From: Nitzschia sp. pyKryTriq1
Lineage: Eukaryota; Bacillariophyta; Bacillariophyceae; Bacillariales; Bacillariaceae
Direction of reading: 5' to 3'
DNA: 64,000 nucleotides
Assembly: GCA_956465555.1 (NCBI GenBank)
Contig: OY101115.1
Coordinates: 1-64,000, forward strand
Every line of letters starts with the position of its first letter. Position 1 is the stretch's first letter. Positions 13,409-43,070 of the stretch are shown here, one piece after another. Both the position numbers and the translations under genes were made by a program. The notes under the pieces are model-generated. The model saw only the letters and a list, made by a program, of their open reading frames with translations, was not told where the DNA came from and made no database searches.

Positions 13409-13421
13409 CTATCGCCGCGAT

Positions 13422-13488
<67 letters not shown>

Positions 13489-15508
13489 ATGATTTCGATG
13501 CTCGACGAATCTTTTGGACCAACTCGGCCGGCAATTGTTTGGTTTGCATATAGTGTCGCATATACAAAATGGACTCGGTTCCCAAATCGGTCGCATCTTG
13601 ACCATTGATTTGACGTCCCTGCAACCGATTGGGAGGCAAATGACGTTTCAATGTCTTTGTATTATTCGAAAGGCACATTTCCAAAATGTCTTGGACTCGA
13701 TCCAGATCATTCATTTTCATAAAGGGACATGTCGCACATCCTCCTGCTGTCGAACATCCTTCTCCACCCGCCACGCCTGGGACCAGCGCCATGCCAGTAC
13801 TACTACTGCTACTACTACTGTCGTCCGTGGTGGCCATGACAGCATCACTGCTGACGGGGAAAATGATTTCCGCTTCGACGTGTTTGGATCCCGTCTCTTG
13901 AAGAATCCTTTGGACGGACTGGACAATCGATGTAACCATGCCCGCTTCGGTACCCAAGACAAATTTGAGACGTTGCAATGTCGTCGGTTGGGTTTGTGCC
14001 ACGTCTTGGACCTTGCGTGTAATGAATGACAAAATGTCCGACGTAGATCCCACGACGCCTTGATCGATGAGACTCTTTTCCATGGCAATCTCAAACATTT
14101 CACCCGGTACTTCCAAATGAGCCGTCATGAAACAATCGTCATAATACGATTCTCGTACTGTTTGAACGACTTGAGCTCCAAACATGTGATGGACGATACA
14201 ATTCCCTTGAGGGAAGACAATGAGATTCTCTCGTAGTTTTTGAAGACTCTTGTTGGAATGGTGCGGATGCAAGTCTGCTTTTATTTTGGCATCGGTCCAA
14301 TCGGGAGATTGTAAAATGACATCCAATAGTGTTTGTAGGTTGTGCCCCATGTACGTATCGGGCCCATACAAAATTCGAATGTCGGGAACTTGAACGGCCG
14401 ATTGGAGCAGCGTTTGCAAAACGTTGGAAGAAGTACAGGTGATGGTGGGTACCAACGACGAGCTGATCGCCTTGGTTTCCAAACTGGTATTGATGTAAAT
14501 GACATGAAGAGTATTGTGGTCGGTCGCTTCTTGTTGCAGCCAAGCCCGGTACGCATCTCCTTCGGCGGATTCGGCCAAGGAACATCCAATGTGTTGTGCC
14601 GTGGCTCGATAGACCGGAACATGGTCGCATCCATTCTTTTGCAAAATCGCTTGGACGCTTTCCGCCATGAAATCAACTCCCAAGCAAATCACGCCCTCCA
14701 CTTGATCGGTTTGACACATTTGCACGGCCAAGTCTCCCATTTTGAGAGAATCCGCAATTCCTACTCTGTGTTCCATACCGGGAGTTTGTTTGAGAGCTTG
14801 CAAGACGCCTTGTAATTCGACATCCATATAATAGTGAGCGACGATCCCCATGTTGGCTTCCAACAGTCCTATTCGAAGCGCTTCGACTGCTTCGGGATCT
14901 GGATCCAAAAACTGTAATAGAAAAAATGGGAGAAGAAAACGACGCGTCGTCGATAGTCCAAGGGTAAGAATGATCACTTGATGAAAATAAGACCAGTATG
15001 GACAGTGATTGCTTGACTGATTGAAATAGAGTATACTGTATATATTACCCACCTGTGCTTGTGCTTCCGCAAAAGATCCTTGCGGTTCAATCGATCGATC
15101 CGGTCCGATGACGATGGAAGGAAAGGCGTCGACGCTTTGATCGTAGGTCGATGTCGCGGCCGTGCTCTTACTGCGGATAGATGCAGCAGTGGTTGTACAT
15201 TTAGGATGAATATAATTATTTGTAGCAGTATTACTGATGCGTGTAGATAATGATGGAGTAGTAGAAATCTGCTGTGTCCATGATGGCCGTGAAATGAGCG
15301 AGGTCGAATTGGTAATAGCAGTACTTGAAGAGGCGGCAGCAGCAGCGGCAGCAGTAGTAGAATAGTAGGCAGGCCGCACCGACGGCGGTGTTCCCACGGA
15401 AGCGACAGCCAGTGACCAGCACCAGGAGGAGGATGGAGCAAAAAGTATATTGGACCCAAGAGTCCGATTGGTTTGTTTCTGGACCAAGCGAGGTAGTAGA
15501 CTCATCAT
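13409..15508 (-). CDS. nadA: quinolinate synthase (NadA)
   Basis: Two exons on the minus strand (15508-15053 and 14911-13409) give ~652 residues; an upstream ATG at 15538 is also possible. The enzyme condenses iminoaspartate with dihydroxyacetone phosphate to quinolinate in NAD synthesis, using a [4Fe-4S] cluster. Visible motifs in order: VAHYYMDVELQ, GDLAVQMC, VICLGVDFMAES, NTSLETKAIS, TCTSSN, GPDTYMGHNL, HHMFG, AHLEVPGEMFEIA, VGSTSDILSFI, GTEAGMVTSIV and CATCPFMKMN. Cysteines in CLGVDF, TCTSSN and CATCPF are the probable cluster ligands. The N-terminal ~170 residues are Ser/Thr/Ala-rich, longer than bacterial NadA, and look like an organellar leader. The C-terminus ends in a long Ser tract encoded by a 9-bp repeat (13421-13490). 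No SufE domain, unlike plant QS. Confidence 0.92.
13421..13492. repeat. 9-bp tandem repeat encoding the NadA serine tail
   Basis: About eight copies of ATGACGACG (plus strand), read on the minus strand as Ser codons. It makes the last ~27 residues of NadA homopolymeric serine and is probably length-variable. Confidence 0.85.
14912..15052 (-). other. intron in the quinolinate synthase gene
   Basis: CAG|GTGGGT donor at 15052 and CTATTACAG acceptor at 14914-14912 on the minus strand. It is 141 nt (47 codons) and has no in-frame stop. The translated insert is hydrophobic and unlike NadA, and splicing joins the family sequence AQ|FLDPDPEAVEALR. Confidence 0.8.
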
Positions 15509-16206
15509 TATTTCGAATGTAATGTAGCGGGGATTCAAATTGATATAAGCGCGTGTTTGGATCTTTTCTGGCTATAGGATGGATTCAATATTATTTCGAC
15601 AAAATCGCCGGCTTTTGACGCTTATTATGTCTCACTGGTTGGAACCGGTACAGTAGCAAACTACAATCAACGAACCAAATTAACACAGATCACAATGCTT
15701 CGTTGATGTCTTGCCTGTTTGGTCGGTCAGCTCTCTTCTTTTGCCTTTTTGGGATTGCTCTACAGTAGCTCTAGTAGAGGAGTTGTTGAAATGTTTGTGT
15801 TCTTTGTGCCGCATTATTTGATACCGCCGGTAGATGATGCTAGCTTCATAATATGCTTCTCTCTTTTCTCTGGATCGGCGGCAACAAAATAAGAGGTGGT
15901 CCTTTGCTCGTCGGGCGTAGGACGGACCTTTTTGACGTCATCCTCTTCGCTCCCGAATGAATCATCATCATATCGCGAAGAATAATCGAATAAAGGGGGA
16001 ACCGATTTTTAAAATGGGGGATGGCGGGTGCGGAAGCCGAATTCTCGCGGTGTTCGAAAGAACACGACGTGATGTGTTCATTTCATTATCATCTTCGTCT
16101 CTACTGTACAAGTACAGTACCGGTGCATTACTTGTAAACACTATATCGTCCATACGAAGTACAGTACTCCTCCCACCCCTTCCTTCTTTCCTTCCTTCGT
16201 TCAACC
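15509..16206. other. divergent spacer between NadA and the membrane-protein gene
   Basis: No gene seen. It must contain both promoters. A C/T-rich run (CCACCCCTTCCTTC type) at 16170-16200 lies directly before the ATG at 16207. The small open frames 15957-16217 and 15968-16204 are mutually antisense and not supported. Confidence 0.4.
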
Positions 16207-18951: not shown

Positions 18952-18981
18952 ATGAGTCACGGCAACAGCGACAACACAAGT

Positions 18982-19033
<52 letters not shown>

Positions 19034-22000
19034 TCAATAGTAACAGCAATAGTAACAAGCGGCTACTGCTGCGATGGCTCGTCTTGTTTTGGATGGCGGT
19101 ATCTTGCCGTGCCTTGATGGTTCCGAACGAGTCTACGTTATCCTCGAGTTTGACGACGACGACCACCAACAAGCCACCGCAAAGACCAAATAATAATAAT
19201 AACAACAAAGGACGGCTGAGCAAGCTGAACCACCAGCAGCAGCAGCTATCTCAAAGTCGAAAGAATAAGTTCCCACCTCTCTTTTCGGAATATTCGGAAA
19301 ATGATCCTCGTCAATATCCAAGAAGGAGGGGAGACAACAACAACGGCGATGACAATGACGACGACTATGATGATGATGATGATGATACCGAAGATATCTT
19401 GAATGCGCACTTTGTTCATCGTCCGAGCAGTGGTACACCACCACCACCCCATCCAAGCCATAAACACAAACAAGTCCAAATCCAACCGGGTGTGATTGGG
19501 ATCTATCCCAAGGGCGAAGAAGACAGCAACAACAACAACTCTGAGCATGATCTCATTCAACCTCCCAAGCCACTTTCCGCACCCTCCAAAATGAGCCGTA
19601 ATCTATATGTGATTCCAGGCGAGGAAAACGACGAGGACGAAGATGACCAGCTGTATTCGACCTCTGGAAATCCTCCCGACCCCAGGAGTACGACGACGAC
19701 TACTAGTAGCAGTAGCAGTCGCACGCCGTATGTTCTTTCAGGCAACAACAACGAAGACAACGAAGACAACGATAATATTATTATCCAAAACAAGAAGACG
19801 AATCGTCTTCGAAGCGATCAAGACGATGGTCGTCCAAAGGCGATTATGGGCAGTGAGACGACGGCTCCCAAGCCCATTCCCGAGACAAGAACGGGTCTCA
19901 ATCTTCTCAATGACGACAAGAAACGTCCTGGAGGAGCCATGTATTCGTTTGCCAACCGACGACAAGCATCACCACAACAGCAAACCAATCCCAGTGCTGC
20001 TGCTGCTGCTGCTGCAACTACTGCTACAAACAAGTCCATCCCGCCGCAACAACAGCAGTCTCGAGGCAATTTCCAAGGTCGTGCCTTTTCGACTTCGGCC
20101 AATGTGCGTCCGCCGGTATCCTCGTCGTCGCCGCCGCCATCCACAAAGAGCGTTGTCACCGCAGAACAAGAAGACGACGGGGAGGATATGTGGAATCCCC
20201 GAGCCGTATCGTCGTCTTCGGATCCGACTACTACAGAGGATGGCAAGAAGAAGAAGAAGAAGGACAATCCCGTTCGTGTATTGGGTGGTCCATCCGAGAA
20301 ACTCTACCAGTCTTCCGCTCTCGGTATGGAAGTTCCCATTCGCGCGCCTGCTGCTTCCAACAAAAAATCGCCCCCCGCCGCTGTCATCAAGCCACTGGGA
20401 GAAGATGATCTCACGAAATCGGTCGAAGAAGGAATCGAAGTACCCATCCAAGGACCTCCTACTTCTACTTCTACTTCTACTACAAGATCATCATCGCGTC
20501 TGGTCCAAGAGTCTTTGGAAATGGTAGACTATGCGGCACGACTTTTGAATCCACCCGATAATACCAGCAGCAACAAGAATACCGTGGATGGAGGAGGATT
20601 TGTCGTACCCGGCAATGCTCCCTCGGTCGAATCGGTACGAGCCCAAATGGCTGCCGATAAATTGAAACGGCAGGGAGGCGCTGCTCTTCGTAGCAATCCA
20701 GACGGAGATCCATCTCAGTCTCTCGATCAATCGGCATCGAAAGGTTTGCTCAATCCTCCTCTTCAAGCTCCTGCAAAAAGTAGTAGTAGTAGTGCGGAAG
20801 CACAAGGTGCCGGCCGACGAAACATCATATCCAATACCGATGGCGATCCGTCCCATTCGTTGGACAAGTCGGCCGCCCAAGGACTGACCATTCCACCGCT
20901 CCAGGCTCCCGCTGGCAGCAAAACAACGACAGCAGGTTCTCGAGGAATCAAGACGAATACCGATGGTGATCCAAGACATTCGCTCGACAAGACGGCTTCC
21001 CAAGGCTTGGTAGCGCCTTCGCTCAAGGCGCCTACTTCTTCCTCGGACGACATGATCGGTGTGAGGAAGTCCTCGCCCGTCAAGTTGGACTCTTCGACTG
21101 ATCCTCATTACAAATTGGACCAACAGTCGACACTTGGAATGGAGATCCCCATCTCCTCTGGTGATGCCCCTGGAAACAGACCGGCCGCCAAGCAAGTCCC
21201 GCAGATCAAGACCGAGACTGGCTTTAAGAGCACTCGCGCGGACTATCCCGAAACATGGCGCAGATCTGATGTGTCGGCGGCGGCAAGTCAGCAAGCCAAA
21301 GCATCGTCCCAGCAAGTGCGACTTGATTCGTCCACCGATCCTCACTACAAATTGTCCTCCCAGTCGACCCTTGGAATGGAGGTTCCGATTGGTGGCGGAA
21401 AGAATGTCCCGACGCCCAAGATCAAGACGGACGCTCCCCTTCGAGCCGATTATCCCGAGACATGGCGGCGCCCGGATACCCTCAAGAAGCCGACTGCTGG
21501 TGGTGGTGGTGGTGGTGGTGCCGAGACATCCAAACAAGTACGACTTGATTCGTCCACTGATCCGCACTACAAACTGTCCTCGCACTCGACACTTGGGATG
21601 GAGGTGCCAGTCTCTGGTGCGCCAGCAAGCGGAAGCATCCCCTCGCGAGTCGGTTTGGATTCTTCCACCGATCCTCATTTCGGACTCGACAAGAACTCCC
21701 GATTGGGTACCGAAGTTCCGATTGGTGCCTCATCGTTGTCTGGCTCCAGTGCTTCCAGCAAGCCTTCTACAACTTCCAAGGTACCGCAAATCAAGACGGA
21801 TGTCCCTACGCGAGCGGACTATCCAGAGACTTGGCGTCGAGCAGATGCGGCAAAGAAGCAAGCTACTGGTCCTGCCAAACCAGTGCGGCTCGATTCTTCG
21901 ACGGATCCTCATTTCGGTCTCGATCAAAATTCCAGACTTGGGACCGAGGTGCCCATAACGTCTGCCCCAAAGAAGTCCCAGAATTTCCAGCCCAAGCCGG

Positions 22001-25000
22001 ATCAGTCTGCCCGCTTGGATGAGAGCGCGTTAAAGGGAACGTTCGTCAATATCCAGTCGACCGGTGCTTCCAAGAAAACCAGGGTCAAGCAAGTATCGAC
22101 CCCGGCTGGATTCCAGATGGTCGAAGTTGACGACGAAAGTGACGTCGACGGCGTGCCTCCTCTCACACGGGCCGACTTTCCAGAGACATGGCAGAAAAAG
22201 ACTCCGTACAAGTCCAGTCATATGAAGAACAGTGCGACCGAGGGTACTGAAGTGACGATCCAAGCTCCTGCTAGCTCCTCAAAGACAGGCGCGGCCTCTC
22301 AGAAATTTCCAGAGAAGCCGGACCAGTCGGCTCGTCTTGATGAAAAATCGATCGAGGGTACATTTGTTCCCGTTCAGTCACGAGGGCCCCCCAAGAAGAC
22401 CAAACTCAAACAAGTATCGACACCAGCTGGCTTCCAAATGATCGAGGTGGAAGATGACGAGGATTCCGATGTGCCGGCAATCACGAGAGCAGATTTTCCA
22501 GAGACCTGGCAGAAGAAATCGACATCCAAAGAGGGAAGCCAACACAAGAATCAGGCAACAGAAGGAACCGAAGTCCGAATTCAAGCTCCAGATACCGCGT
22601 CGACGGAAGGCGACTCAGGATCGAAATACAACAAGGTGAGGAAGGCGACCGAGGACGAGAATGAAAATGAAAATGACGACAACAATTAATATTCTAATAG
22701 TATCTATCGAACATGAAGCTCGTGCCAGATCAGCAGGCTGCTACATCCCGAAACAACCAAGCCATGTCGGGAACATTCGTCAATGTGGCGGCCAGCGGTA
22801 TGTCTGGGGCTACCTCGCCAGCGAGGCCATTACATATGAAGATTGTTCCTGATCAAATGGCGTCACTTTCGCAACGCGCACTCGAAGGCACCTCCGTCGT
22901 TGTAGGAGCGAGCTACGCAAATAGTAGGGCCGGCCAAGGACGGACGATAACTTCTAGTAGGAAGCAGCGTGAGGAGGAGGCAAAGCGCTCGAGCATTTAC
23001 GACCAAGCGCGACGCCGTGGCATCGAAGCAGCTGAAAAGCGAGCTGCACTTGAAGCATCAAGAAGGGGGGCGGAAACTCACCTCAAGCAGCGAATGGACG
23101 AAGTCGCCCAACAAGCATTGCAGCAAGCGGCCAGAATGGGAGAACAATTTCGAGAAGCAGTGCAGAAGAAATTCGATCTAGAAGTTGCCGCGAAGAGAGT
23201 CGAAGCGGAAGGACGTGCCGCTGCACTTCAAAAACAGCACGAGTCTGTGATGGCTGACCGTCGCGCCGAAGAAGAGATACGGCTTGCCAAGGAACAAGCC
23301 GAAGCAGACGCCGAGATGAAGGCGGAAGAGGAAGCTGCGCGGCAAGCATACAAGAAACTCGAACTAGACGCGGCGCAGGCCAGGCTGGATGCGGACGAAG
23401 AAGCCGCACGTGTTGACTCGATTCGGAAGAGACATCTCGAGGAGGTTGCACGACGTGCACAAGAGATACGTCTAGCAGCAGTGGTGAATCAAGCTGACGA
23501 AGACTCTCGCGTCAAAGCTGTGCAAGAACAAGATCGCGAAGGGAAAGTTACCGAAAACGAAGCTCAACCACCAAACATGAAGCTCGTGCCGGACCAGACG
23601 GCATCACTCACAAACCGAGCCATGTCGGGGACGTTTGTGACGGTGGCGGCCGGTGGTGTATCTGGTGCCAGCTCATCAAAGGCAGCACAGATGAAGATCG
23701 TTCCCGATCAAATGGCATCAATATCTCAACGAGCGCTCGAGGGCACCTCCGTCGTTGTCGGCGCAAGCTACGCAAACAGCAGGATCAGCCAACGACAGGC
23801 GAATGATGTCGGGACAAAGCGCTCGAATGTTCTAGACGAAGCGCGACGACGTGGTATTGAAGCAGCCGAAAAGCGCGCCGCACTTGAGGCCGAACGACGA
23901 GCCAAGCAAGCAGAAGCAGAGGCTAGGTTGAAAGCCCAAAAGGAGGAAGCGATGCGACTTGAAGAGGCTCGACGACAAGAGCGTGCTCTACTAGCAACCC
24001 AAAAGAAACTCGAGCTAGAAGCTGAACACGCGAGGATGATTGCAACGAGGAGAGCTGAAGCGGAAGCCCGTGCTGCTGCAATTCAAAAACAGCAACAGGA
24101 AGCAGCCGAAAAACGTGCCGCACTCGAAGAAGCAAGAAGGCAGGCCGAGGCCAAGCTCGCACTGGAGAGGAAGCTACGAATGGAAGAAGCCGTTCGAATG
24201 GAAGAGGCGCGAAGGCAACTGCGGGCTCAGCAAGCCGCCCAGAGGAAGCTTGAACTTGAGGCCGCACAAGCCAAGCTGGTTGCTGACCAGAGGGCAAAGG
24301 CGGAGGCACGAGCTGCTGCAGTCCGACAACAGCAACAAGAGTTGGCGGAACGTCGTGCAAAACAAGCCGAATTGAAGGCTCTTTTGACAGCCGAGAAGGA
24401 AGAAGCGGCGCGAATAGAAATGGCCCGACGACAAGAACAAATTCGTCAAGCAGCCCAGAAGAAGCTCGAACTAGAAGCAGCACAAGCTCAGATGCTTGCC
24501 GAGAGGCGGGCGGAAGCAGAAGCACGCGCTGCGGCAAAACTAAGGGAGCAGCTCGAGATAGCGGAGGCACGTGCCGCAGCAGTTCAAAGACAAAAGGAGG
24601 AAGTGGCCGAACGACGTGCCAAACAAGCCGAAATGTTGGCCCGATTAAAAGCGGAGAAGGAAGAAGCAACGCGGCTTGAAATCGCTAGACGACAAGAACA
24701 GGCTCGGCAAGCTGCCCAGAAGAAACTCGAACTCGACGCTGAACAAGCGAGGATGATTGCCGAGAAGCGGGCGGAAGCAGAAGCACGTGCTGCGGCGATG
24801 CGAAAGGAGAAACTAGAAATAGCCGAAGCACGCGCTGCTGCAGTTCAAAGGCAAAAGGACGAAGTGGCGGAACGGAGAGCACAACAAGCCGAAATGTTGG
24901 CTCGATTAAAAGCCGAGAAGGAAGAAGCGGCCCGACTAGAAATGGCGAGACGACAAGAACAAATTCGCCAAGCAGCTCAAAAGAAACTCGAACTAGAAGC

Positions 25001-25461
25001 CGAACAAGCAAGGGTGATTGCAACAAAGAGAGCCGAAGCTGAAGCACGTGCAGCTGCAATTCAAAAAGAGCAGCTACAGATTTTGGAACGCCGTGCTAAA
25101 CAAGCCGAAGCGGAAGCTCGATTAAAAGCAGAGAGAGAAGAAGCAGCGAAAATCGAGGCCCGAGAAGCCGTCGCCAGGAAACTCGCAGTGGAAGCCGAAC
25201 AAACCAAGATGGTTGCCGCTGAGAGGGCCGAAACGGAACGGCGTGCCGAAGAGACGCGCCTTGCCAAACAAGCAGAAGTCGAGGCTCGACAGAAAGCGGA
25301 ACAAGAACAGGCCGAATCGAAGCAACAGGCGGAAGAGGAAGCAGCGCGGCAAGCAGCCGCTCAGGAGAAACTTCGAGTGGAAGCAGCACTAGCCAAGGTG
25401 GCTGCCCAGCAGGCAGAGGCCGACGCGAAACAAATAGCGGAAGATCAGGAAGCAGACCGTC

Positions 25462-25502
<41 letters not shown>

Positions 25503-26333
25503 GAAGCAGAAGCAGAAGCAGCCGCTGCCAAGGTGGAAGCGGCTCTCGCCAAGGTGGCTGCTGCGACCAAGGCCGATGCGGAAGCCCGTGCGGTGGCGAT
25601 TCGAAAGCAACATCAAGAAGAAATTGCTCGACGTGCCGATGAAATTCGCCTCGCCCGTCAAGCCGAAGAACAAGAACGGCAATTAAAGATCCTCGAAGGT
25701 ACCAAACGTCGCATTGGTAACAATCAAAACAACAACAATACTCGGCCATCGGGAGGCTTTTCGCGATCTCAATCCACGGCCTTGCACATGAGCAGCAGCA
25801 GTCGCCAGTTCTTGAACAACGAAAAGGTCGACAAGGACAACGCCGACCGGATGCTTCGAATGCTCCAGCAAGCGGCTACTACCTCTGCCGACCTCTTGTC
25901 GAAAGGAGCCGCTACCTCCGCTGACCTTCTGTCAAAAGGTTGGGCCGTGGGCGTGGAAGAAGTAAAGCGGCTTCAACAGCAACAGCAACAGCAACAACAG
26001 CAGAAAGAGGCTCAGCGTTCCGCGACAACGTCCAAGAACAACAACTCCTTTTTTGCCCAATTCCTAGCAATGCAAGAACGACGCCGTCAAGAGCAGCAAG
26101 AAGAGCCACCACTAGAATCTCTGGATACTACTGCTAGTACTAGTAGTAGTGTTTTGTCCCCTGCTCGACCAGCAGCAACACGTCCTCCCAGTACTACTGC
26201 CAGCAAATTGGACAATCTCTACCGACCACCGCCACCCAACCACAACAAGGTACAGTCGCATCCGCAGTCGCAGAGTAGTAAGAGTACACCCTTTTTTGCT
26301 CGACGAATCGAGGGTGGCGACGGACGACAATAA
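18952..26333 (+). CDS. very large repeat and coiled-coil protein, unknown family
   Basis: I join two open frames (18952-22635 and 22701-26333) across a 65-nt intron into 2438 residues. The join reads SKYNK|YLSNMKLVPDQ, and an internal repeat (PPNMKLVPDQ) supports it. Order: (SN)n start; hydrophobic anchor or signal at ~38-54 (LLLRWLVLFWMAVSC); disordered region to ~450; degenerate ~20-residue modules from ~455 to ~1150 (DSSTDPHYKLSSQSTLGMEV, PDQSARLDESALKGTFV) alternating with five RADYPETW/RADFPETW motifs and two KQVSTPAGFQM motifs; then two units of PDQ modules plus long Ala/Glu/Arg/Gln coiled coil (~1230-2240); a Gln tract; and a STPFFARR tail. No enzyme motif seen. A secreted, plastid or cytoskeletal scaffold is possible. 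If the intron is wrong, these are two genes 23 bp apart. Confidence 0.72.
22636..22700 (+). other. intron joining the two halves of the giant coiled-coil gene
   Basis: AAG|GTGAGG donor and TTCTAATAG acceptor with a branch-like CTAAT, 65 nt, phase 0. It removes the TAA at 22687-22689. The exon 2 start encodes YLSNMKLVPDQ, matching PPNMKLVPDQ 288 codons later. Confidence 0.72.
22713..24000 (+). repeat. 864-bp internal duplication (PDQ pair plus coiled coil)
   Basis: MKLVPDQ at 22713 and at 23577 are exactly 288 codons apart. After each come AMSGTFV-V-AA, MKIVPDQMAS-SQRALEGTS, VVVGASYANSR and ARRRGIEAAEKRAALEA in the same order. The second unit's coiled coil is then expanded by shorter repeats. 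Confidence 0.85.
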
Positions 26334-27239
26334 GACTATTGGGAGAAGACTACGACAAGAACGAATACAATAACAACAACTACTACTAGTACTACTAATA
26401 GTACTGCGACAACTGGTATTAAAATGTACTAGAAGAACGTACTATGCTTGCACACTCTATGCCACCGCATGATCTACTACCACCAGTATCATCCCTCTAC
26501 AGGTAGATACTTTCTCTACCGGTAGCAGTAGCTAGTAGTACCAGTACTACTATTCTTCGTACGGTGGTAATGCTATAGCAGCAAGCAGCAAGGTCGTCTG
26601 GTGATCATCGGATTGACCGACATACCGGTACAGACAGACAGACAGAGATACCCGCCGGGCCGGCGCATGCAATGCAGCGCGTGTGTGTGACACGACGACG
26701 ACGACGACGGCCGGCGGCCCCGCCCGCCTGCGCGCGCGGATCGTCGTTGTTCAAATAAATTAATAACAATTATTTCCTGCGCCGGCAGATTAGAAAAGCC
26801 GATACAATGAGCGAAATCTTTCACTGCGACATTCCAGGCATATATCAGAGGCTCATTCTTCTAGCCGTTATTCTGCCACGCACGTACAATAGGAGCATTG
26901 CCCGTACATATGTACAAGTAGTAGTTACGGTAGGTGTACAGTAGTGGAATGCCAATGGAATGGCCAATGTCACGGACGACACGATGATGATTCGGCGGGT
27001 GCGTGTGTTTGAATTCGATCTTTTTGTGACACCGACCGAACGAGACGAGAGCAGCGAGCGCCAAATACTACTAAAATAAAAGAAGAGGCAGGAGCAGCTA
27101 GCGAAAGCGGGACTTTCTCGTTATTAGTTTCTGATCATCTCGTTATTAGAACACAAGAATAACACATCCCTGCCTCTACATAAACAAAGCATACAACAAT
27201 AACACATACAACAACAATAACAATAACAATATCAAAACC
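26334..27239. other. spacer between the two coiled-coil paralogs
   Basis: No gene supported. Contains ACTACTACTAGTACTACTA words (26381-26400), ACAGACAGACAGACAGA at 26631-26646, a GC-rich CGCCGGCGGCC-type run at 26650-26740, and a CAATAACAATAACAA leader directly before the ATG at 27240. Confidence 0.4.
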
Positions 27240-30200
27240 ATGAAGCTCTCGTTGGCATCAGCAGCGCTATCGTTGTGGGTGGCGACGATTGGGAATGCGC
27301 CAGGAGGGGCATGGTCTTACACTACTACTTCTACAAGTACTACAGTTCGTACGGCTCGCACCGCCACTACTTCTACTACTACTCAATTAAAGTATCAAGA
27401 AAATGCCAATGTCGACGTGGATGTCGACGTTGTCGAAGCGACGGAACGAGCCAAGCATGAACAACAGCTTGAATTGGCGGCGGTGCGAATGCGATTGCTC
27501 GAGGATGCCAAGCGGGCCGAGGTTGCCAGCAACAGCGACAACAACCCAGGCAGCAGCAATAGCGACAGCAGCAGTCGTCGTCAAGCATTCTTCTTGCAAC
27601 AAGCGGCGGAACAGGCTTTGGAGTTATTGTTGGAAACACAACAAACGAGCCAGAATAGTAGTATTGAGAGTTATTTGGAACAAGCGGCATTGCTACAGGC
27701 TCAAGAAGAGATGCATTTGCAAGCGGCCGTGGAATTAAGGGTGCAAATTGAACAACAACTGCAACTGCAACTGCAGCAGCAAGGTACTACTACTACTGCT
27801 AGTGCTACTAGTACAGAGTTAGTACTTGCCAATCTTCAAGAACAGGAAGAAGAGCATTTACAAGCGGCCGTCCAAGCGCATTTACAAGCAGAGGAACAGT
27901 TGGAATTGTATCAGGAGCATGAAACCAAGTTGCAAGCCAAAGTCGAGGCATTCTTGATGACAACGGTCCAACAAGGAAACACAGAAAAAGAAGAAGAAAC
28001 AGACACTGCTACTACTACTACTACTGCTACTACTGCTACTACTGCTACTGCTATTACTCGATCATTGGAACGAGAACTTGCGGCTGCCGAAGCAAGATTG
28101 CAAGCCAAGGAAGAAGAAGCACGACTCTTGCAAGAGGCAATGCAAAAGGCCAAACAGGAACAACAAGCCGAAAAGGAGGCGGCGGCAGCGGCTCGGGCCA
28201 AGGCTTTTCAAGAGCAAGAACAAAAAGAAGCAGAAGCCAAGAGGCAAGCCGAGGCCGAGGCGGTTGCCATCTTGCAGCTCAAACAAGAAGAAGAAGAATC
28301 AGCAAGAATCCTGCTGGCTGAGGCGCAACAAAAGGCTCAATTACAAGCTCAACAAGAAGCGGCCGAGGTAGAAGAAGCTGCTCGCTTGTTGGCAGAAGAG
28401 CAACAAGCGGAATTAGAGTGGATGGCCAAGTTCGAACAACAAGAAGAAGATCGTCAACGGGCTGCCGCTGCTGCTGCCGCCGAACTAGATGCTCTGCTCA
28501 ACAAGGCACAGTGGCTAGCGGAAATTGAAGCAGCCAAGCGTCAAGCAAAGCCAGAGTATTACTACGATCAAAAAGATCAAGACGATACAATGGGCATGGA
28601 TGTCATTCAACTCGCCAAGCGTCGTGGTGCTATGGAACGAGAACGTCAAGCGGCTCAAAAGGCACTACAAGTCCAAGAAGACGAACTGTTGCGAGCGGCT
28701 CTGGAAGAACAACGTTCGATTGCGGCACGTCGTGCCCGACAAGAAGAACAGGCTCGGCTCGTCCAACAACAGATTCAAAAGGAAGAACAGGAACACCAAC
28801 GATTAGTACTCGTCGAACAAGCCAAGCAACGGGGTATGGAGGAATTGGAACGACGTGCTGCGTACGAGGCCCAGAAGCAACAGGAAGAAGAACTGGCTCT
28901 ATTGAAAAAGAAGGAAATTGATGCGATTGCCAAGCAACGACAAGATCTCGTCATGGAAATTCAAGCTCGTAAAGATGCCATGGAGAAACATCAACAACAA
29001 GAACTCCAAGCGAAACTTGTCTCTGACGAACAAGTTTCCATCATGGAGGAAGCTCGTCGACGTGGAGAGGAAAAGAAGAAAGCACTGGCTCTCAAATTGC
29101 AACAAGAAAAGGAAGCCAAAGAGGAGTACAATGCCATTCAACTTGCCGCCAAGGTTCGTGGAGAAGAAGAAGCCAAGCGTCGTGCGGAACTCCTTGCCAA
29201 GACACAAGCGGAACAAGAAGCATTAGAGCGTGAGCAGCTTGCTGAAGCTACCCGACGCAAAGAGGAAGAAGCTCGACTACTGGCCGAGGCACGGCGCCGA
29301 ATGAATGTTCATGCGCAGCTCAAGATGGAAGCCAGGAATCTACCCAATCTGATGATGGCATCATCATCATCAGCTACAACAACATCTTTGTTGAAAACCA
29401 ACGGCCTAGTAGAGTCGTCAACATCTACAGAGAAGAAGCCCGATTTCGTCAAGGCCCTTGTCGAATACGTTGCGGATCCATCTCACAAACGTCTCATCAA
29501 GTCGATCCAAGAGGAAGAGCAAGTCAAGATCACAGTTGCTCCCGATCAACAACAAAGTCGAGGTCCTCCGCCCAAGATTGTCAAAAAGTGGAAGCAAGTC
29601 AAGGGTGATGGTGGCTTTCGAATGGTGTCCTACTTTGAAAAGGAACACAACAACGGCGTATCATCTCCTCCTCCTGCTCTTTCGACCAAGCCCGTGACTT
29701 CGATTCCTTCCGCATCCGCCGTGAAATTCGTTCCTCCGACGGATGGAGCCACTCCCATGATGCGTGTCAAGAAATTCAAGCAGGTTCCCACGAATGGAGG
29801 GAATAAGTTGGTTCCTTACTATGAATACGTCCCCGATCTCGAAGCTATTCAGGCCATGGCTCGCGCCCAAAAAGAAGAGGAAGCACGCCTCGCTCGTCTT
29901 GAACAAGAGCAAGAAGAAGAACGACGTCGCATTGAACAAGAGCAAGAAGAAGAACGACGTCGCATTGAACGATACAAGGCGCGTCAAGAAGAAAACCGAC
30001 GACAGGCCATGGCCGCCGTTTCCAAGATCAAGGCTTATATCGAGCGTAAGATCCCACCCCAGGTCGAAGAGACTTGGGCGTCGTTGCAATCCGTTAAGGC
30101 GAGTGGCAGCAGCACCAGCATGCCTAAACCTCCCAAGACGCCGCCCTCTTTGGAACTACTTAACGGCGGTAGCAGTGAGGCTATCGTCGCCAAGAACGAT

Positions 30201-30254
30201 GAGGAGCGTGACAATAATACGCGAAAGACTCCCTTTTTCGCCAAGGAGCAGTAA
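27240..30254 (+). CDS. coiled-coil protein with signal-like leader, paralog of the upstream giant gene
   Basis: 1004 residues, one exon. Residues 1-26 (MKLSLASAALSLWVATIGNA then PGGAWS) look like a signal peptide followed by a Ser/Thr-rich stretch; A|W near the cleavage site would also fit a diatom plastid signal. Residues ~60-700 are Gln/Glu/Ala coiled coil with recurring AKRRG/ARRRG...RAA phrases. Residues ~770-870 carry VAPDQQQSRGPP, KKWKQVKGDGGFRMVSYFE and KKFKQVPTNGGNKLVPYYE. A short exact repeat (EQEQEEERRRI, twice) lies near 890-915. The protein ends KTPFFAKEQ. PDQ, KQV...G, RRG...RAA and TPFFA are all shared with the gene just upstream on the same strand, so I infer tandem paralogs. 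No enzyme motif seen. Confidence 0.8.
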   Translation: MKLSLASAALSLWVATIGNAPGGAWSYTTTSTSTTVRTARTATTSTTTQLKYQENANVDVDVDVVEATERAKHEQQLELAAVRMRLLEDAKRAEVASNSDNNPGSSNSDSSSRRQAFFLQQAAEQALELLLETQQTSQNSSIESYLEQAALLQAQEEMHLQAAVELRVQIEQQLQLQLQQQGTTTTASATSTELVLANLQEQEEEHLQAAVQAHLQAEEQLELYQEHETKLQAKVEAFLMTTVQQGNTEKEEETDTATTTTTATTATTATAITRSLERELAAAEARLQAKEEEARLLQEAMQKAKQEQQAEKEAAAAARAKAFQEQEQKEAEAKRQAEAEAVAILQLKQEEEESARILLAEAQQKAQLQAQQEAAEVEEAARLLAEEQQAELEWMAKFEQQEEDRQRAAAAAAAELDALLNKAQWLAEIEAAKRQAKPEYYYDQKDQDDTMGMDVIQLAKRRGAMERERQAAQKALQVQEDELLRAALEEQRSIAARRARQEEQARLVQQQIQKEEQEHQRLVLVEQAKQRGMEELERRAAYEAQKQQEEELALLKKKEIDAIAKQRQDLVMEIQARKDAMEKHQQQELQAKLVSDEQVSIMEEARRRGEEKKKALALKLQQEKEAKEEYNAIQLAAKVRGEEEAKRRAELLAKTQAEQEALEREQLAEATRRKEEEARLLAEARRRMNVHAQLKMEARNLPNLMMASSSSATTTSLLKTNGLVESSTSTEKKPDFVKALVEYVADPSHKRLIKSIQEEEQVKITVAPDQQQSRGPPPKIVKKWKQVKGDGGFRMVSYFEKEHNNGVSSPPPALSTKPVTSIPSASAVKFVPPTDGATPMMRVKKFKQVPTNGGNKLVPYYEYVPDLEAIQAMARAQKEEEARLARLEQEQEEERRRIEQEQEEERRRIERYKARQEENRRQAMAAVSKIKAYIERKIPPQVEETWASLQSVKASGSSTSMPKPPKTPPSLELLNGGSSEAIVAKNDEERDNNTRKTPFFAKEQ

Positions 30255-33273: not shown

Positions 33274-36200
33274 CTAGTAGGATCTGTTCAAATCGTAACC
33301 GAGCGATGTATCCACCGAGTCGTCGTCGTCGTCGTCGTCATCGCCGACTGAAATGTCAAGCCCCATGCCCACGTTGGAAAGATAGGACATGAAATCTTGC
33401 GACGAGTCGACGACTTGTTGCGGACAAACGTCGACGTTGCCAATCCCAATCCCCATATTTGTATTATTTGTGTTTTTATTATTCCCCATCCCTTCTTGTT
33501 TCGACACTGCACTGCTCTTGCTTGTCGTTGGTGCTGAAGAAGAAGAAGTTCTTGCCGTGGATGACGGCTTGTTGTTCGTGCTGTTGTTGTTGTTGTTGTT
33601 GTTGTTGTTTGGAGAGCGTCGATTAGTCTTTCTACCGCCCCCGCCCCCGCCGCATTTGCGAGGATCGCTCCTCCTCGGCGCTCTCAAACGATGCAGCTCT
33701 TGTTCGAGCTGGTTGCGTGCGTGGAACCATTTTTTACGTTCTTGCATCCAAAGATCCCGTTCTTGTTCCCAACGGTCTTGATCGGACTTGTGCTTGATCA
33801 GATCGGTATTGCGTTTCCGCATCAAGCCATCCAATTGAGACTTGAGTTCCGTCTTGGTAGATTCCAAAGTCGTGCGCAATTGGGCCATTTCTTGTTGTGC
33901 GTGGGCGACTTGAGCCTTGGCTCGATCCAATTCGGCTTGTAACTGTGCTCTCACTTGCCATGATTCCCGCAATTCATCTTGCGCTTGTTCGAGCTCAATG
34001 TGCGCTTGGTGGAGAGTCTGCGGGACCCAATCCAACCAAGCAATATTATCACCTTCAATGTCACTCTGGCTGATACTGTTCTTGTTCTTGTTCTTGTGGT
34101 TCATGATGATACTTCGACAGCTCTTGATTGACTGCTGTTGCAGCACGCGCTTCAAAATCAATGTAGCATCGTCGCGTTCAAAGACTTGTTGCCAGTCTCG
34201 AGACAATACTTGCATACAACGTTGCTCCAAGAATGTGGAATGGATGTCGTTGGTAGAAGTAGTAGTGTAGGAGTCGACGGCGGTTGATGACGACGAGAGA
34301 AGAAGTTCCAAGATGAAAATGGCCGCATGGACGGTCAAGACACCGATATGTCGACAGCACTCGTCCAAAAAGGATGGAGTGACGGCGTCTCGATAATACC
34401 CACAATACTTCATCAACAGAGACGACAGATTGGCGCTGCATTCTTGCTTTCGAATAGGATCGACTCGTTCCAATATGTTGACAAATTGAACAGGTGATAG
34501 TTCCGACAAGAAGGATGAGATGTGCAAATCATCATCATGATTGTTCTTCTTGATATCCCAGTAGGGCACTTGGAGCGATGCCAATTGCAAAATCGAATCG
34601 ACCAACTCGTGTTGATCAAAATACGTAGCGTCTTGTAGATACACTGCCAATATTGTTGTGTCAGTGTTTTGTTTCAAGTCTTGTTGGATGAAATCCATGC
34701 ATTCTTTCAAAAGTTGCCCGTGCTCCAAATACTGAGCGAGATAGGCGAGGCCGACGGCCGTCTCGGTCGTCATTCGAAAGGTCGATAGACCGTAGATATG
34801 ATCCAAAAAGTACGGCATCAAGTCGCACCCTCGAGCAATGAGTGGAATTCGGGTCACTCGATCTGTGGTGGTTGTAGAATTATTGTTCTTGGCCACTTCT
34901 CGTTGAAAGTAGCCACAGGATCGTTTTCCGACACACAAGACGACTCGATGGACATGGTAGGTCATAAAGTCCTTGGTAGAACGATTAAAGATCTCCAACC
35001 TCCAATCTGACATGGATTGAGATGGGTCCATTCGCCACGACAGTTTCTGAAAGGCGGACGGCGCTTCCATCGTAGACGTAGTAGCAGTCTGCTCGTGATG
35101 ATTATGATTATGATGTCGGCTGTAGTCGCGATCAAACGACGAAACCTGGGATAGTGGCGCGGCTTGATGATAATGATGGTCCGCCAAGGAAGGACGATGA
35201 AAAGCTGATCCAGCATCAAACGAACAGGCTTGACGCAATAAGGGAAGAGACTGGTCGACATCGAAAGCGTCGTTGTTGTTGGTCATACGAGTATTGGTGG
35301 ACCCGCCTAATGGATGTAGAGGGTAGCTAGGCTTCTGATTATGGTGCACATCACAAGCACCGTACGAAGAACGATCGTCAAAGGAATGGGAATACGAGAT
35401 GCTCTCTGGCGGATCCGGAGAAACTCGGCGCTTTGTTGCGAATGATCTGGAAGGCTGTGAATACCTTTTCTGGATCTCATGAATCTTGGGGGAGGTAGCA
35501 CCGTCTGGATCGTAATCCGAATAGTGATGCAGCCCCATGTTTCTCGCTTGCACTTCCTCTCGATGAGCAGTTGGTGGAATAATAGTAGTTTGCGACCCAC
35601 GATACTCTTTCATGCTCTCATCATCTTTCTGGACTGCTTCTTTTTCTTCTTCTCCTTTTTCTTCTTCCACTACCTTGGCTGTGGTTGTTGTTGATGATGT
35701 TGGAGGGCAGTTTCGTGCCCGAATACAATCTTGGGCCGCGGCTTCCCATTGACCCAACTTTTCCAAAACAATGGCTCGATGGGCATACAAGAGAGCCGTC
35801 GGAGTGGGCGCCGTAAGAATCGCTTCATTGTAACATTTCAAGGCTTGTTGATAATCTCCCTCCAGCTTGGCATTCGTCGCCATTTGTTGGTAGTGGGAGG
35901 ACCGATCAAAAAGCGCATTCGACTTGTACGTGGTGTACTCATCGTGTTGTTCTCGATCTGCTGCTGATGGAACCACTGGCATATTCTTCAGATTATGATG
36001 ATGGTAATTATTATTCGCAGAATCAAATGCCGAGGACGGTAATGATGGGTGATCCTTTTCTTTCAAAGAAGTAGGTGGGAGGATCAACGGATTGGCATTC
36101 GCCGAATGGGTAGGATCCAGAGAAGGAGGATTGCCCGTACCCCATGAGTCATCCTCTCCGCGATTATGTTGGCGCTGGCTTGGTACAATATTGGGAGGAT

Positions 36201-37458
36201 TTCCCGTACCCCACGAGTCTTCCTCGCCTCGTCCTTGACGACCACTATTACTATAATTGCTGCTGCAGCTGGGTGATGATGATGATGAATTCTTGGGAGG
36301 ATTTACCGCACCCCATGAATCGTCTTCTCTTCCTCTTCCTTCTTGTTGGCGTAGCAGATGATCAGTAGCAGTAGCAGTAGCAGTAGCAGTAGCACCTCCA
36401 TTGCCTTTATCTTCTTTATCGGGCAACGACGTGGCCATAGGTGGTGTCTCGCGCAACGACGGAAGACGACCACTGCGAGGTCTTGCGTAGGAAGTACCAA
36501 TTCCTTTTGTGTGGTTTTTGTTGTTCTTGATGTTGTGGTTGTTCTTGTTGTTGTGGTTGTGCCGACTTCTAGTATCTGTTCCTCGTCTCGAAACAACCTC
36601 TTGATGTAGTCGAGGAGGAGATGGTGGCACAACATTCACATGTGTTTTACCATCATTATCATGATCATCATCACCGGGCGGCGATGACGACGACGGCGGC
36701 GACATTACGATTGAATTGGAAGGCAAAGTCAAGGGAGGATCGACAATGGGGGTGGCACCTTCTTGTGTTGTTGGCTGATGCCGGCGTGCATGTGGACGTG
36801 GTCGTAGCTCCTCTTGGTGTTGCCGAAAGGAACGAGGACGTAGAGGAGGCTGCTGCAAGTGACGTTCCAGCCGGGAAGTAGTAGTAGAAGTAGAAGCCGT
36901 TGGGCGGCGAGCTTCATGATCATGATCATCATCTCGGACGACATGAACAACATCCCCATTGTTCTTTTTGTTTGTACTACGCGCACCACTTGATATTGTT
37001 CCACACTTATTCCAATGTTCTTCGAATGATGGAACGGGAGAAGCCTGCATGAACACTATTTCTTCTTCTTCTTCGTCATCATCATCGGAAAAGATGGTCA
37101 ACTCATTGTCCGAATGCCTCGAAATAGCCGATAAGGCGTCCTCGGGCCAGGCTGGTGGTGCCGGCGGTGATGGGACCATGACTTGGCGTTGCTGCTTTTG
37201 CTTTTGTTTTCGCCTTTCTTGCTCACGCTCACGATGATATGGATCATCATGCTTTTGACGTTGATGATAGCGTTCTTGTTTCCTTTGCAAGGCAGCTGTG
37301 GGCGTTGATGTGGTTGACATTCGAGAATTGGCACTACGCGTACTTCCATCCGAAGAAGAGGAAACCATTCCGCTCTTCGAAGACCAGCCGGTCGAAGACA
37401 CGTCCATACGGTTCGTGCTGGAAGCGGAGGAGGATGAAGAGGAAAATTCTTCAAACAT
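33274..37458 (-). CDS. TPR-BTB-coiled-coil protein, copy 1
   Basis: 1394 residues from the ATG at 37458; this start matches the paralog's MFEDF as MFEEF. A disordered Ser/His/Arg-rich N-terminus holds ALQRKQERYH. Three EDDSWG-type motifs lie at plus-strand ~36125-36330 (two read DSWGTGNPP, one is degenerate, DSWGAVNPP). Two TPR-like helical pairs occupy ~520-590 (GDYQQALKCYNEAIL, LLYAHRAIVLEKLGQWEAA). A BTB/POZ-like domain spans ~805-930 (SDWRLEIFNR, HVHRVVLCVGKRSCGYFQRE, LMPYFLDHIYGL), with a BACK-like helical region to ~1070. A coiled coil is at ~1150-1250, and the tail has QQVVDSSQDFMSYLSNVGMG. BTB proteins often dimerise and recruit Cul3, but no target is visible here. Confidence 0.75.
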   Translation of the reverse strand: MFEEFSSSSSSASSTNRMDVSSTGWSSKSGMVSSSSDGSTRSANSRMSTTSTPTAALQRKQERYHQRQKHDDPYHREREQERRKQKQKQQRQVMVPSPPAPPAWPEDALSAISRHSDNELTIFSDDDDEEEEEIVFMQASPVPSFEEHWNKCGTISSGARSTNKKNNGDVVHVVRDDDHDHEARRPTASTSTTTSRLERHLQQPPLRPRSFRQHQEELRPRPHARRHQPTTQEGATPIVDPPLTLPSNSIVMSPPSSSSPPGDDDHDNDGKTHVNVVPPSPPRLHQEVVSRRGTDTRSRHNHNNKNNHNIKNNKNHTKGIGTSYARPRSGRLPSLRETPPMATSLPDKEDKGNGGATATATATATDHLLRQQEGRGREDDSWGAVNPPKNSSSSSPSCSSNYSNSGRQGRGEEDSWGTGNPPNIVPSQRQHNRGEDDSWGTGNPPSLDPTHSANANPLILPPTSLKEKDHPSLPSSAFDSANNNYHHHNLKNMPVVPSAADREQHDEYTTYKSNALFDRSSHYQQMATNAKLEGDYQQALKCYNEAILTAPTPTALLYAHRAIVLEKLGQWEAAAQDCIRARNCPPTSSTTTTAKVVEEEKGEEEKEAVQKDDESMKEYRGSQTTIIPPTAHREEVQARNMGLHHYSDYDPDGATSPKIHEIQKRYSQPSRSFATKRRVSPDPPESISYSHSFDDRSSYGACDVHHNQKPSYPLHPLGGSTNTRMTNNNDAFDVDQSLPLLRQACSFDAGSAFHRPSLADHHYHQAAPLSQVSSFDRDYSRHHNHNHHEQTATTSTMEAPSAFQKLSWRMDPSQSMSDWRLEIFNRSTKDFMTYHVHRVVLCVGKRSCGYFQREVAKNNNSTTTTDRVTRIPLIARGCDLMPYFLDHIYGLSTFRMTTETAVGLAYLAQYLEHGQLLKECMDFIQQDLKQNTDTTILAVYLQDATYFDQHELVDSILQLASLQVPYWDIKKNNHDDDLHISSFLSELSPVQFVNILERVDPIRKQECSANLSSLLMKYCGYYRDAVTPSFLDECCRHIGVLTVHAAIFILELLLSSSSTAVDSYTTTSTNDIHSTFLEQRCMQVLSRDWQQVFERDDATLILKRVLQQQSIKSCRSIIMNHKNKNKNSISQSDIEGDNIAWLDWVPQTLHQAHIELEQAQDELRESWQVRAQLQAELDRAKAQVAHAQQEMAQLRTTLESTKTELKSQLDGLMRKRNTDLIKHKSDQDRWEQERDLWMQERKKWFHARNQLEQELHRLRAPRRSDPRKCGGGGGGRKTNRRSPNNNNNNNNNSTNNKPSSTARTSSSSAPTTSKSSAVSKQEGMGNNKNTNNTNMGIGIGNVDVCPQQVVDSSQDFMSYLSNVGMGLDISVGDDDDDDDDSVDTSLGYDLNRSY

Positions 37459-38147
37459 CCTGATGCTATCTACGATGGTTACTTTGTATCCAAACCAACA
37501 ACACTTACTATTCCACCACCAGTGTATGTCTATCAGATCTGTCGATCGATCGATCGGACGCCTCTTTCTTGCTGTCTGGCTTGGCTCGCACATTCTCGAT
37601 CCATCTGCAGCCCGCCCTGCACAAAAAACACGCACGAACGCACATTCTCCATGAATTTTTCGGCGTTCAAAATATTTTGGACGGTCATGCTCGATGTGGA
37701 ACGGAAAGTTTCCTCTAAGTAAAACGACGAACGGCTGCCAACGATGGCGGTTTTGCGAATTATTCTGAATGACCCGATAATTTGGATTTCGTAGTAGTTG
37801 TACGTACGGTATAAGTACAAGGTACTGTACGACGAAGGACGGACTTCACTCTGCTCCATCCAACGCGCGCGTGCGTTGCCATGCATGTACAGCATGTCAT
37901 CCGCTCATCGCGTTTCGAGCCGGCCCGGACGAGTTCCATCACAAGCTTCTTGGAGTGCGGGGGAGGGCGCTCGACGACGACTCCTCTGACTGGAAAGCTA
38001 CTACGAAAGCACGCTTTGAATGCAATACAGGCTAGTAGAGTAGCTAATATGTCTAACATGCTCATCGATACTTATTTTAAACCTACTAGCAGTAGAGTAA
38101 TTCTCATTTCGTCATCGTACAACTAGATAGTAGTGCAACAGTAGCTA
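37459..38147. other. spacer between the BTB paralogs
   Basis: No gene supported. It holds the promoter of copy 1 and the 3' end of copy 2. CGATCGATCGATCGG at 37542-37556 and TACGTACGGTA words near 37800. Confidence 0.4.
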
Positions 38148-42753: not shown

Positions 42754-42788
<35 letters not shown>

Positions 42789-43070
42789 ATATCGCTCTTG
42801 CTTTCTTTGAAAGGCCGGAGTGGTGGGCGCGGGATTCGTCAAGGAGGAGACGGACATGCGACTGCTCTTGCTCTTGCTCTTGTTGCTCCCACCACCATCA
42901 GAGGAAGACGACCAACAACCCGACGACGCATCCATGCTGGTATTATTATCATGGTTGTGGTGGTTATGGTGGTTGTGGTTATTCGACCGATAGGTCGTCG
43001 TCATCGTCCTACTAATGGTAGAAGACGACGACGACGAGGATGACGACGACGAGTGAAAGTCTTCAAACAT
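38148..43070 (-). CDS. TPR-BTB-coiled-coil protein, copy 2
   Basis: 1640 residues from the ATG at 43070. Same layout as copy 1 with longer low-complexity segments (Gln, His, Asn, Thr tracts). Shared N-terminal ATP-rich AFQRKQERYHKQQ; two DSWGTGNPP motifs (plus-strand ~40741-40835); TPR-like pair near 837-900 (NYVQALEYCNEAIL, LLYAHRAIVLEKLGQWEAA); BTB-like domain near 1125-1250 (SDWKVEIFNRTTKNF, HVHRVVLCVGQRSCGYFQRE, LMPYFLDHVYDL); BACK-like region (SNLSSLLMKYCGYYRNAVTP); coiled coil; and the same C-terminal CPQQVVDSSQDFMSYLSNVG. Tandem duplicate of copy 1, same strand, 689 bp apart. The globular parts are far more alike than the linkers. Confidence 0.75.

Follow-up and report, generated by a model that had tools for sequence, protein, structure and literature searches.

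Do two neighbouring genes of the diatom Nitzschia sp. pyKryTriq1, joined by a few short modules, encode proteins that work together as a scaffold in the plastid stroma, and is Rubisco what they bind? These genes, called gene 1 and gene 2, lie on contig 1 (OY101115.1, assembly GCA_956465555.1; genome of 40.65 Mb in 20 contigs), whose first 64,000 nucleotides are here called the window. As much as 20% of the CO2 fixed globally is attributed to diatoms, and PYCO1, the Rubisco linker of Phaeodactylum tricornutum, has according to its authors no BLAST homologue in other sequenced algae (PMC10288592), so the organisation of Rubisco in other diatoms seems to be an open question. The best and simplest reading of our analysis is a multivalent plastid scaffold, perhaps of the pyrenoid; the more specific proposal, that genes 1 and 2 encode scaffold partners in the stroma of the plastid, most probably within the Rubisco condensate, or pyrenoid, is given a probability of about 40%. 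The 72 matches to the antenna family PF00504 in the genome, counted per exon, point to a photosynthetic ochrophyte.

The two genes and the intron predicted in the first of them are as follows.

18952–26333, plus strand: gene 1, from open frames and a splice; two exons (18952–22635 and 22701–26333), 2438 amino acids
22636–22700, plus strand: predicted intron of gene 1, 65 nt, GT..AG, phase 0 (AAG/GTGAGG ... CTAATAG/TATC), read from the sequence
27240–30254, plus strand: gene 2, 1004 amino acids, a single frame for which no intron is necessary

An initial annotation had described two adjacent coiled-coil genes here, and both were confirmed at their coordinates, gene 1 on the condition that its intron is removed, as it reads through solely in that case; a CTAAT box is present. 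The frame opened by the ATG at 18952 runs to a stop at 22689, and 23 nt beyond it another frame opens with the ATG at 22713. The splice join yields SN-MKLVPDQ, and PN-MKLVPDQ is found again 288 residues on. This second, internal copy of N-M-K-L-V-P-D-Q speaks for coding sequence ahead of the ATG at 22713, and the division of gene 1 into two separate genes was rejected, given the short distance between stop and ATG and the string that the splice preserves.

None of 24736 Pfam families matched gene 2 or either exon of gene 1, each scanned by itself, at an E-value of 0.01 or below (E<=0.01). In the PDB, the first exon of gene 1, the only one compared, gave two matches at E<=10 (best E=0.8), and gene 2 gave none at E<=0.001. 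The search of the genome with gene 2 as the query returned gene 2 alone at E<=0.001. No relatives of gene 2 or of the gene 1 repeats were present in the viral contigs of a viral collection, and none of the gene 1 repeats in prokaryote genomes; neither collection is informative on other diatoms.

The modules that connect the two proteins are listed below. The structural predictions come from AlphaFold models made without an alignment, with confidence given as the predicted local distance difference test (pLDDT).

22081–22125, plus strand: KQV module, gene 1 copy 1 (RVKQVSTPAGFQMVE), residues 1044–1058; hairpin not predicted
22402–22446, plus strand: KQV module, gene 1 copy 2 (KLKQVSTPAGFQMIE), residues 1151–1165; low-confidence predicted beta hairpin 1154–1157/1161–1164, block pLDDT 43–48
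29538–29570, plus strand: APDQQQSRGPP of gene 2, of which QSRGPP is common with gene 1 (BLASTP)
29586–29627, plus strand: KQV module, gene 2 copy 1, residues 783–796; predicted beta hairpin 780–786/793–799, pLDDT about 84
29772–29813, plus strand: KQV module, gene 2 copy 2, residues 845–858; predicted beta hairpin 840–851/854–865, pLDDT about 91
26283–26303, plus strand: C-terminal STPFFAR tail of gene 1, TPFFAR being residues 2424–2429 of 2438
30225–30245, plus strand: C-terminal KTPFFAK tail of gene 2, TPFFAK being residues 997–1002 of 1004

The KQV motif had been annotated in both genes with five residues before the glycine. It is indeed common to both, the spacing being four: each protein contains two copies of the full form K-Q-V-x4-G-[FN]-x-[ML]-[VI]. 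Gene 1 has three additional KQV tripeptides, one of which (at 173) matches KQV-x4-G and not the remainder of the motif. With low-complexity sequence masked by SEG, BLASTP paired a block of about 45 amino acids in the two proteins, QSRGPP...K-Q-V-x4-G-F-x-M-V (E=0.002), as well as the phrase ARRRGIEAAEKRAALEA / AKQRGMEELERRAAYEA (ARRRG-E-..-RAA; E=0.002). QSRGPP occurs once per gene, in gene 1 within VQSRGPPKK at 22372–22398. As both blocks were still paired under masking, the similarity of the genes is not one of composition alone. In 20000 local shuffles of gene 2, KQV-x4-G was found twice in 5 and KQV....GF.M[VI] in 1; neither two copies of KQV....G[FN].[ML][VI] nor the TPFFA[RK] tail ever arose. 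The patterns, like that used for PDQ below, had been composed after the motifs had been seen. Genome-wide, KQV-x4-GF has 10 places (15 for the reversed pattern). The continuation x-M-[VI] follows it in the three places of the window and in none of the seven others, which include aldolase-like and FKBP-like frames, named by eye.

The annotated TPFFAR and TPFFAK ends were confirmed, close to the C-termini. The pattern TPFFA[RKQHNS] has 15 places in the genome (7 when reversed), and a convincing protein end is seen only in genes 1 and 2. Eight of the 13 places outside the window have an identical stretch of 17 bases, and seven of these run on into NFGGRTDS; one (L028) closes a frame of 23 codons that longer frames in both other phases overlap, and four are internal to frames of 36–129 codons, 15–73 residues before the stop. 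For these reasons TPFFA was rejected as a widespread targeting tag. The eight places (L029, L031, L032, L034–L038) belong to a dispersed repeat reading TPFFAQ, and four of them carry the full TPFFAQNFGGRTDSYQVLHTLLRVSAFLVQ. For the residue choices searched, the TPFFA tail and KQV are thus combined nowhere in the genome except in these two neighbours. A literature search for the string TPFFA gave no relevant lead.

A PDQ module, the first of the features that the genes had been said to share, belongs to gene 1, where two repeat series are seen.

20707–21945, plus strand: eight DP[HSR]..L...G repeats of gene 1, a DP variant of the PDQ module
21997–23753, plus strand: six PDQ...G[TS].V modules of gene 1, starting at 21997, 22318, 22725, 22848, 23589 and 23703

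Gene 2 has a single PDQ, which lacks the G-T-x-V half and was reached in 1280 of the 20000 shuffles; since this is chance level, PDQ was rejected as a module common to gene 2. By sequence comparison, then, what genes 1 and 2 share is a KQV block, a tail and a single helix phrase, and not the full PDQ module. Their description as tandem paralogues remains unproven, as the blocks alone align after masking and the KQV blocks of copy 2 in gene 1 and copy 1 in gene 2 are 51% identical in DNA over 45 bases. The two gene 1 copies are 78% identical in DNA. The protein similarity of the KQV block seems to have outlived its DNA similarity, which suggests selection or an old separation.

A hairpin was predicted in three of the four KQV copies, in one of them at low confidence. 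In the model of gene 2 residues 721–1004 the second hairpin is followed by a helix at 867–937 (block means 82–98), and the TPFFA tail is disordered. In these models KQV has the look of a small beta hairpin and not of a bare linear motif. The earlier idea of a structural or scaffold role with short binding modules suits the predicted disorder and long helices described below, the lack of Pfam matches and the shared modules. None of 87 Foldseek matches to the gene 2 model reached E<=0.001; the top match, the red-algal phycobilisome protein CaRSP1, was rejected as not significant (E=0.38, TM-score 0.09).

One explanation of the shared motifs is chance, or low-complexity convergence of two unrelated neighbouring helical genes. 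PDQ does occur at chance level, the BLASTP E-value of 0.002 is modest and concerns one pair of proteins only, the tail alone compared between gene 1 and gene 2 under masking gives E=2.9, and much of the remaining sequence is rich in A, E, K and R. The best ungapped matches of 10 and 16 residues between gene 2 residues 750–1004 and the gene 1 repeats plus tail are likewise compositional: they pick E/R/Q-rich text that shuffles reach in 13/400 and 14/400 cases, so this test lends no support to a relationship. Chance is nevertheless a very improbable explanation in our estimate, as masking leaves the KQV block, a helix phrase and the tail shared, the two proteins that bear the tail sit side by side in a genome of 40.65 Mb, and the KQV hairpin is predicted in both.

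The strongest repeat of gene 1 is absent from the initial annotation, as are the plastid-type leaders and a third gene described below.

21235–21264, 21442–21471, 21811–21840, 22168–22197 and 22486–22515, plus strand: five RAD[YF]PETW[RQ][RK] repeats of gene 1

Three of the five read RADYPETWRR and two RADFPETWQK; their tryptophans, at residues 769, 838, 961, 1080 and 1186, are 69, 123, 119 and 106 residues apart. The region carrying them is predicted to be disordered, with 637 of the 669 residues of the 560–1228 model at pLDDT<50 and a helix at 563–574 and the hairpin of KQV copy 2 as the only elements drawn. This arm is basic (isoelectric point, pI, 9.17). The pattern [YF]PETW has 19 places in the genome (3 when reversed), five of which are in gene 1. 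Five of the other 14 lie in frames of at least 166 codons, and four of these five look, by eye, like folded enzymes or domains. Two related frames, L084 on C7 and L086 on C8 (166 and 181 codons), have [YF]PETW..NS.P..F.PDLG in common, and there the motif probably belongs to a fold. With a looser pattern the count rose to 28 places (10 when reversed), 21 of them new; of the three that were read, two lie in closed short frames and one (L091) is undecided. The literature search for PETW returned no relevant title among the matches listed; the 2024 papers on the diatom pyrenoid, which were outside the search, may already name such proteins.

The PETW scan also yielded a candidate for a further member of the set.

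G000:C12:153962–152601, minus strand: gene 3 (L090), 454 amino acids, unlinked to genes 1 and 2

Gene 3 begins with MMKFNQHCLLLVLWVQLANHPSYG followed by FTPNSS, and its C-terminal end is AAYPETWR. It is rich in Tyr, Asp and Arg and apparently disordered, with a heptad-periodic coil near residues 256–330; it matches no Pfam family at E<=0.01 and has no paralogue in the genome at E<=1. With gene 1 it has in common the patterns A[AD]YPETWR and PL[TS]RA[DE]FP[ED]. None of 400 gene 3 shuffles reached the eight-residue YPETWR match; for PLSRAEFPD of gene 3 against PLTRADFPE of gene 1, 0/400 reached the nine-residue match and 1/400 a ten-residue one. As plain BLASTP the matches have E-values of 0.72 and 1.3. 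Two weak matches elsewhere in the genome were dropped: C7:1886972, which is motif-free across the 360 bases read, and L004 (E=1.38), a 616-codon frame without KQV, PETW, TPFFA, PDQ or RAD[YF]P.

The placement of these proteins in the plastid depends on their leaders.

19057–19113, plus strand: hydrophobic leader of gene 1 (KRLLLRWLVLFWMAVSCRA, then L-M-V-P)
27240–27311, plus strand: N-terminal signal-peptide-like leader of gene 2, ending in GGA and followed by W-S-Y and a Ser/Thr-rich stretch

Import into the diatom plastid uses F, W, Y or L at position +1 past the signal peptide, followed by a transit-like stretch (PMC2173943). At the apparent cleavage sites, read by eye, the +1 residue is L in gene 1, W in gene 2 and F in gene 3, and the 35 residues past the site contain 1, 2 and 5 acidic residues, respectively. 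All three +1 residues agree with the published rule, which suggests plastid import. Among 30 antenna loci, a leader of the A-F type (e.g. AAAFAP) was seen in 12, six had no leader in the same open frame, and the 12 minus-strand loci were outside the reading. Leader-bearing proteins that are low-complexity, repeat-rich and charged are also common in the diatom cell wall. Genes 1 and 2 might thus be secreted or silica-associated proteins with a plain signal peptide and a Ser/Thr-rich stretch serving as a glycosylated stem, an assignment that a targeting call made by eye leaves some room for. We consider it improbable, given that W and L at +1 and the scarcity of acidic residues thereafter fit the plastid rule.

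The second half of gene 1 is dominated by one long helical stretch.

23856–25697, plus strand: Pro/Gly-free stretch of gene 1, 614 residues (1614–2227), rich in Ala, Glu, Arg and Lys, with a single-helix signature

It consists of 26% Ala and 39% charged residues, and a part of it is an 87-codon tandem repeat (261 nt, 2.7 copies, 80% matches). Hydrophobic periodicity at the heptad spacing (about 3.5 residues) did not rise above shuffles in this stretch (p=0.12 for ILVMF, 0.88 with Ala included) or in gene 2 (p=0.33–0.69 for two segments and two residue sets). In the positive control, the gene 3 coil, it was reached by 0/300 shuffles with ILVMF and gave 0.057 with Ala. A canonical coiled coil was therefore rejected for the helices of genes 1 and 2, so that the A+RRG-x-E-x-x-x-RAA phrase, annotated as part of a coiled coil, does pair the two proteins, while the coiled coil itself is doubtful. 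Meanwhile, the stretch contains 95 pairs of E with K or R at i+3/i+4, in excess of the 60.7 +/- 6.6 found in shuffles, and 24 like-charge pairs at i+4, depleted vs 69.8 +/- 6.7. It thus carries the signature of a salt-bridged single helix, and a coil of another periodicity is possible. The excess of i+3/i+4 salt bridges, the depletion of like charges and the missing heptad peak are as in the single alpha-helix (SAH) domains addressed by Waggawagga-CLI (PMC5812594). SAH domains are extremely rich in E, K and R (PMC5812594), unlike the gene 1 helix with its Ala and charge content.

From this anatomy we propose the following arrangement. The long disordered arm of gene 1 would present its five RAD[YF]PETW motifs as stickers to an abundant stromal partner, for which Rubisco is the most likely candidate. 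The charged, Ala-rich helix of roughly 600 residues would act as a rigid spacer and be followed by the short tail. As an alpha helix rises 0.15 nm per residue, such a rod would be about 90 nm long if straight. Gene 2 would contribute helical arms, two KQV hairpins, the same tail and one ETWASLQ helix:

30063–30095, plus strand: VEETWASLQSV of gene 2, in a predicted helix at residues 940–954 (PQVEETWASLQSVKA), pLDDT 55–65

Through the KQV hairpin together with the TPFFA[RK] tail, genes 1 and 2 may dock on a common third partner or on each other, and gene 3, with its plastid-type leader, may be recruited through its C-terminal AAYPETWR. Taken as a whole, this would be an undescribed diatom pyrenoid scaffold set, in which a linker with the new sticker RAD[YF]PETW[RQ] and a rod of about 90 nm formed by a single helix is paired with its neighbour through the KQV hairpin and TPFFA, and a C-terminal PETWR recruits further plastid proteins. 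That complete picture is rather unlikely to hold in every part. If true, it would give the red lineage an equivalent of the Rubisco-binding motif that Chlamydomonas pyrenoid proteins have in common (PMC13167743).

PYCO1 is the closest published comparison. In this disordered, basic protein, Trp-containing KWSPR stickers recur and bind the small subunit of Rubisco, and the large subunit is bound by a helix, AAEWGSMNQ, of which ASEWASMNT is likely a second copy; its authors noted variants of this second motif in other proteins (PMC10288592). The proteins described here resemble it in the repeat build, the largely disordered and basic character and the repeated Trp motifs, and possibly in the transit peptide predicted for it (PMC10288592), and ETWASLQ of gene 2 has the W, small residue, S, large hydrophobic residue and amide in the same order as AAEWGSMNQ and ASEWASMNT. 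It fits W-[AG]-S-[ML]-[NQ], our summary of the PYCO1 motifs, a pattern that occurred in 14/20000 gene 2 shuffles. Gene 1 differs from PYCO1 in being larger and in having a long helical half, the KQV hairpins and the TPFFA tail. A query of the PDB with the published PYCO1 motifs gave nothing. The Chlorella linker (CsLinker) had been sought by disorder, repeats and a spacing of 20–120 residues (PMC11570498). Gene 1, a largely disordered protein in its modelled arm with five Trp repeats, shares with EPYC1 and CsLinker this combination of disorder and short repeats at roughly the spacing suited to Rubisco crosslinking, three of its four spacings lying within that range. The stickers of EPYC1 and CsLinker are helical and act on green-type Rubisco (PMC11570498), whereas PETW is not predicted to be helical and gene 1 adds a second, helical half. 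Genes 1–3 can also be likened to SAGA1 and SAGA2, coiled-coil proteins that carry Rubisco-binding motifs and join the matrix to another structure; these have predicted CBM20 starch-binding domains (PMC13167743), whereas no Pfam family was matched by genes 1–3 at E<=0.01.

Several results weigh against a Rubisco scaffold. KWSP and GTGYNP are absent from genes 1, 2 and 3, and exact E-W-[AG]-S-M-N has no place in the genome, gene 2 having the relaxed T-W-A-S-L-Q; the latter is a single copy in a helix of low pLDDT, and the match was chosen after PYCO1 was known. The PYCO1 stickers are helical (PMC10288592), and the single-sequence AlphaFold model draws none of the five PETW motifs of gene 1 as a helix. 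The remaining Trp spacing, of 123 residues, lies outside the linker range. Gene 2 is without PETW, gene 3 is without KQV and TPFFA, and genome homology searches with the gene 1 repeat sequence failed to recover gene 2 or gene 3 at E<=10; the compositional nature of the best ungapped matches also counts against this reading. As to targeting, the calls for genes 1–3 are readings by eye. Hydrophobic leaders had been annotated at both starts, and that of gene 2 is N-terminal, but the stretch of gene 1 begins only after 35 polar, Asn/Ser-rich residues. In heterokont plastid proteins F at +1 is nearly universal, with W, Y and L as rare replacements (PMC2567999), which weakens the plastid call for genes 1 and 2.

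The main rival explanation is that of plastid scaffolds unrelated to Rubisco, which would organise thylakoids, envelope, nucleoid or division machinery through KQV, TPFFA and the charged helices. The leaders are of the plastid type, no exact known Rubisco sticker is present, and disorder, long helices and shared modules suit any multivalent plastid scaffold; we regard this as a possible explanation that must be taken seriously, at odds clearly below even. The Trp motifs on the basic arm and the ETWASLQ helix favour Rubisco, weakly. The reading of genes 1 and 2 as stromal, probably pyrenoid, partner scaffolds is directly testable, as the locus supplies named modules, mutable residues and, in gene 3, a third candidate partner. 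Should the partner be other than Rubisco, KQV hairpin and TPFFA tail would still make up a pair of modules that no Pfam family matched.

Other long frames were seen in the window. Tandem paralogues occupy the adjoining minus-strand frames at 33274–37635 and 38148–43172 (63% identity across 886 aligned columns); their TPR matches are weak, as are the BTB matches seen in one of them. At 52282–55080 on the plus strand lies a frame of 932 amino acids whose start is rich in Asn; it contains a hydrophobic stretch and long low-complexity regions, acidic and rich in His and Gln, and matched no Pfam family at E<=0.01. The minus-strand frame at 13409–15538 is quinolinate synthase A-like (NadA, PF02445, E=2.7e-29) and has a long C-terminal run of Ser.

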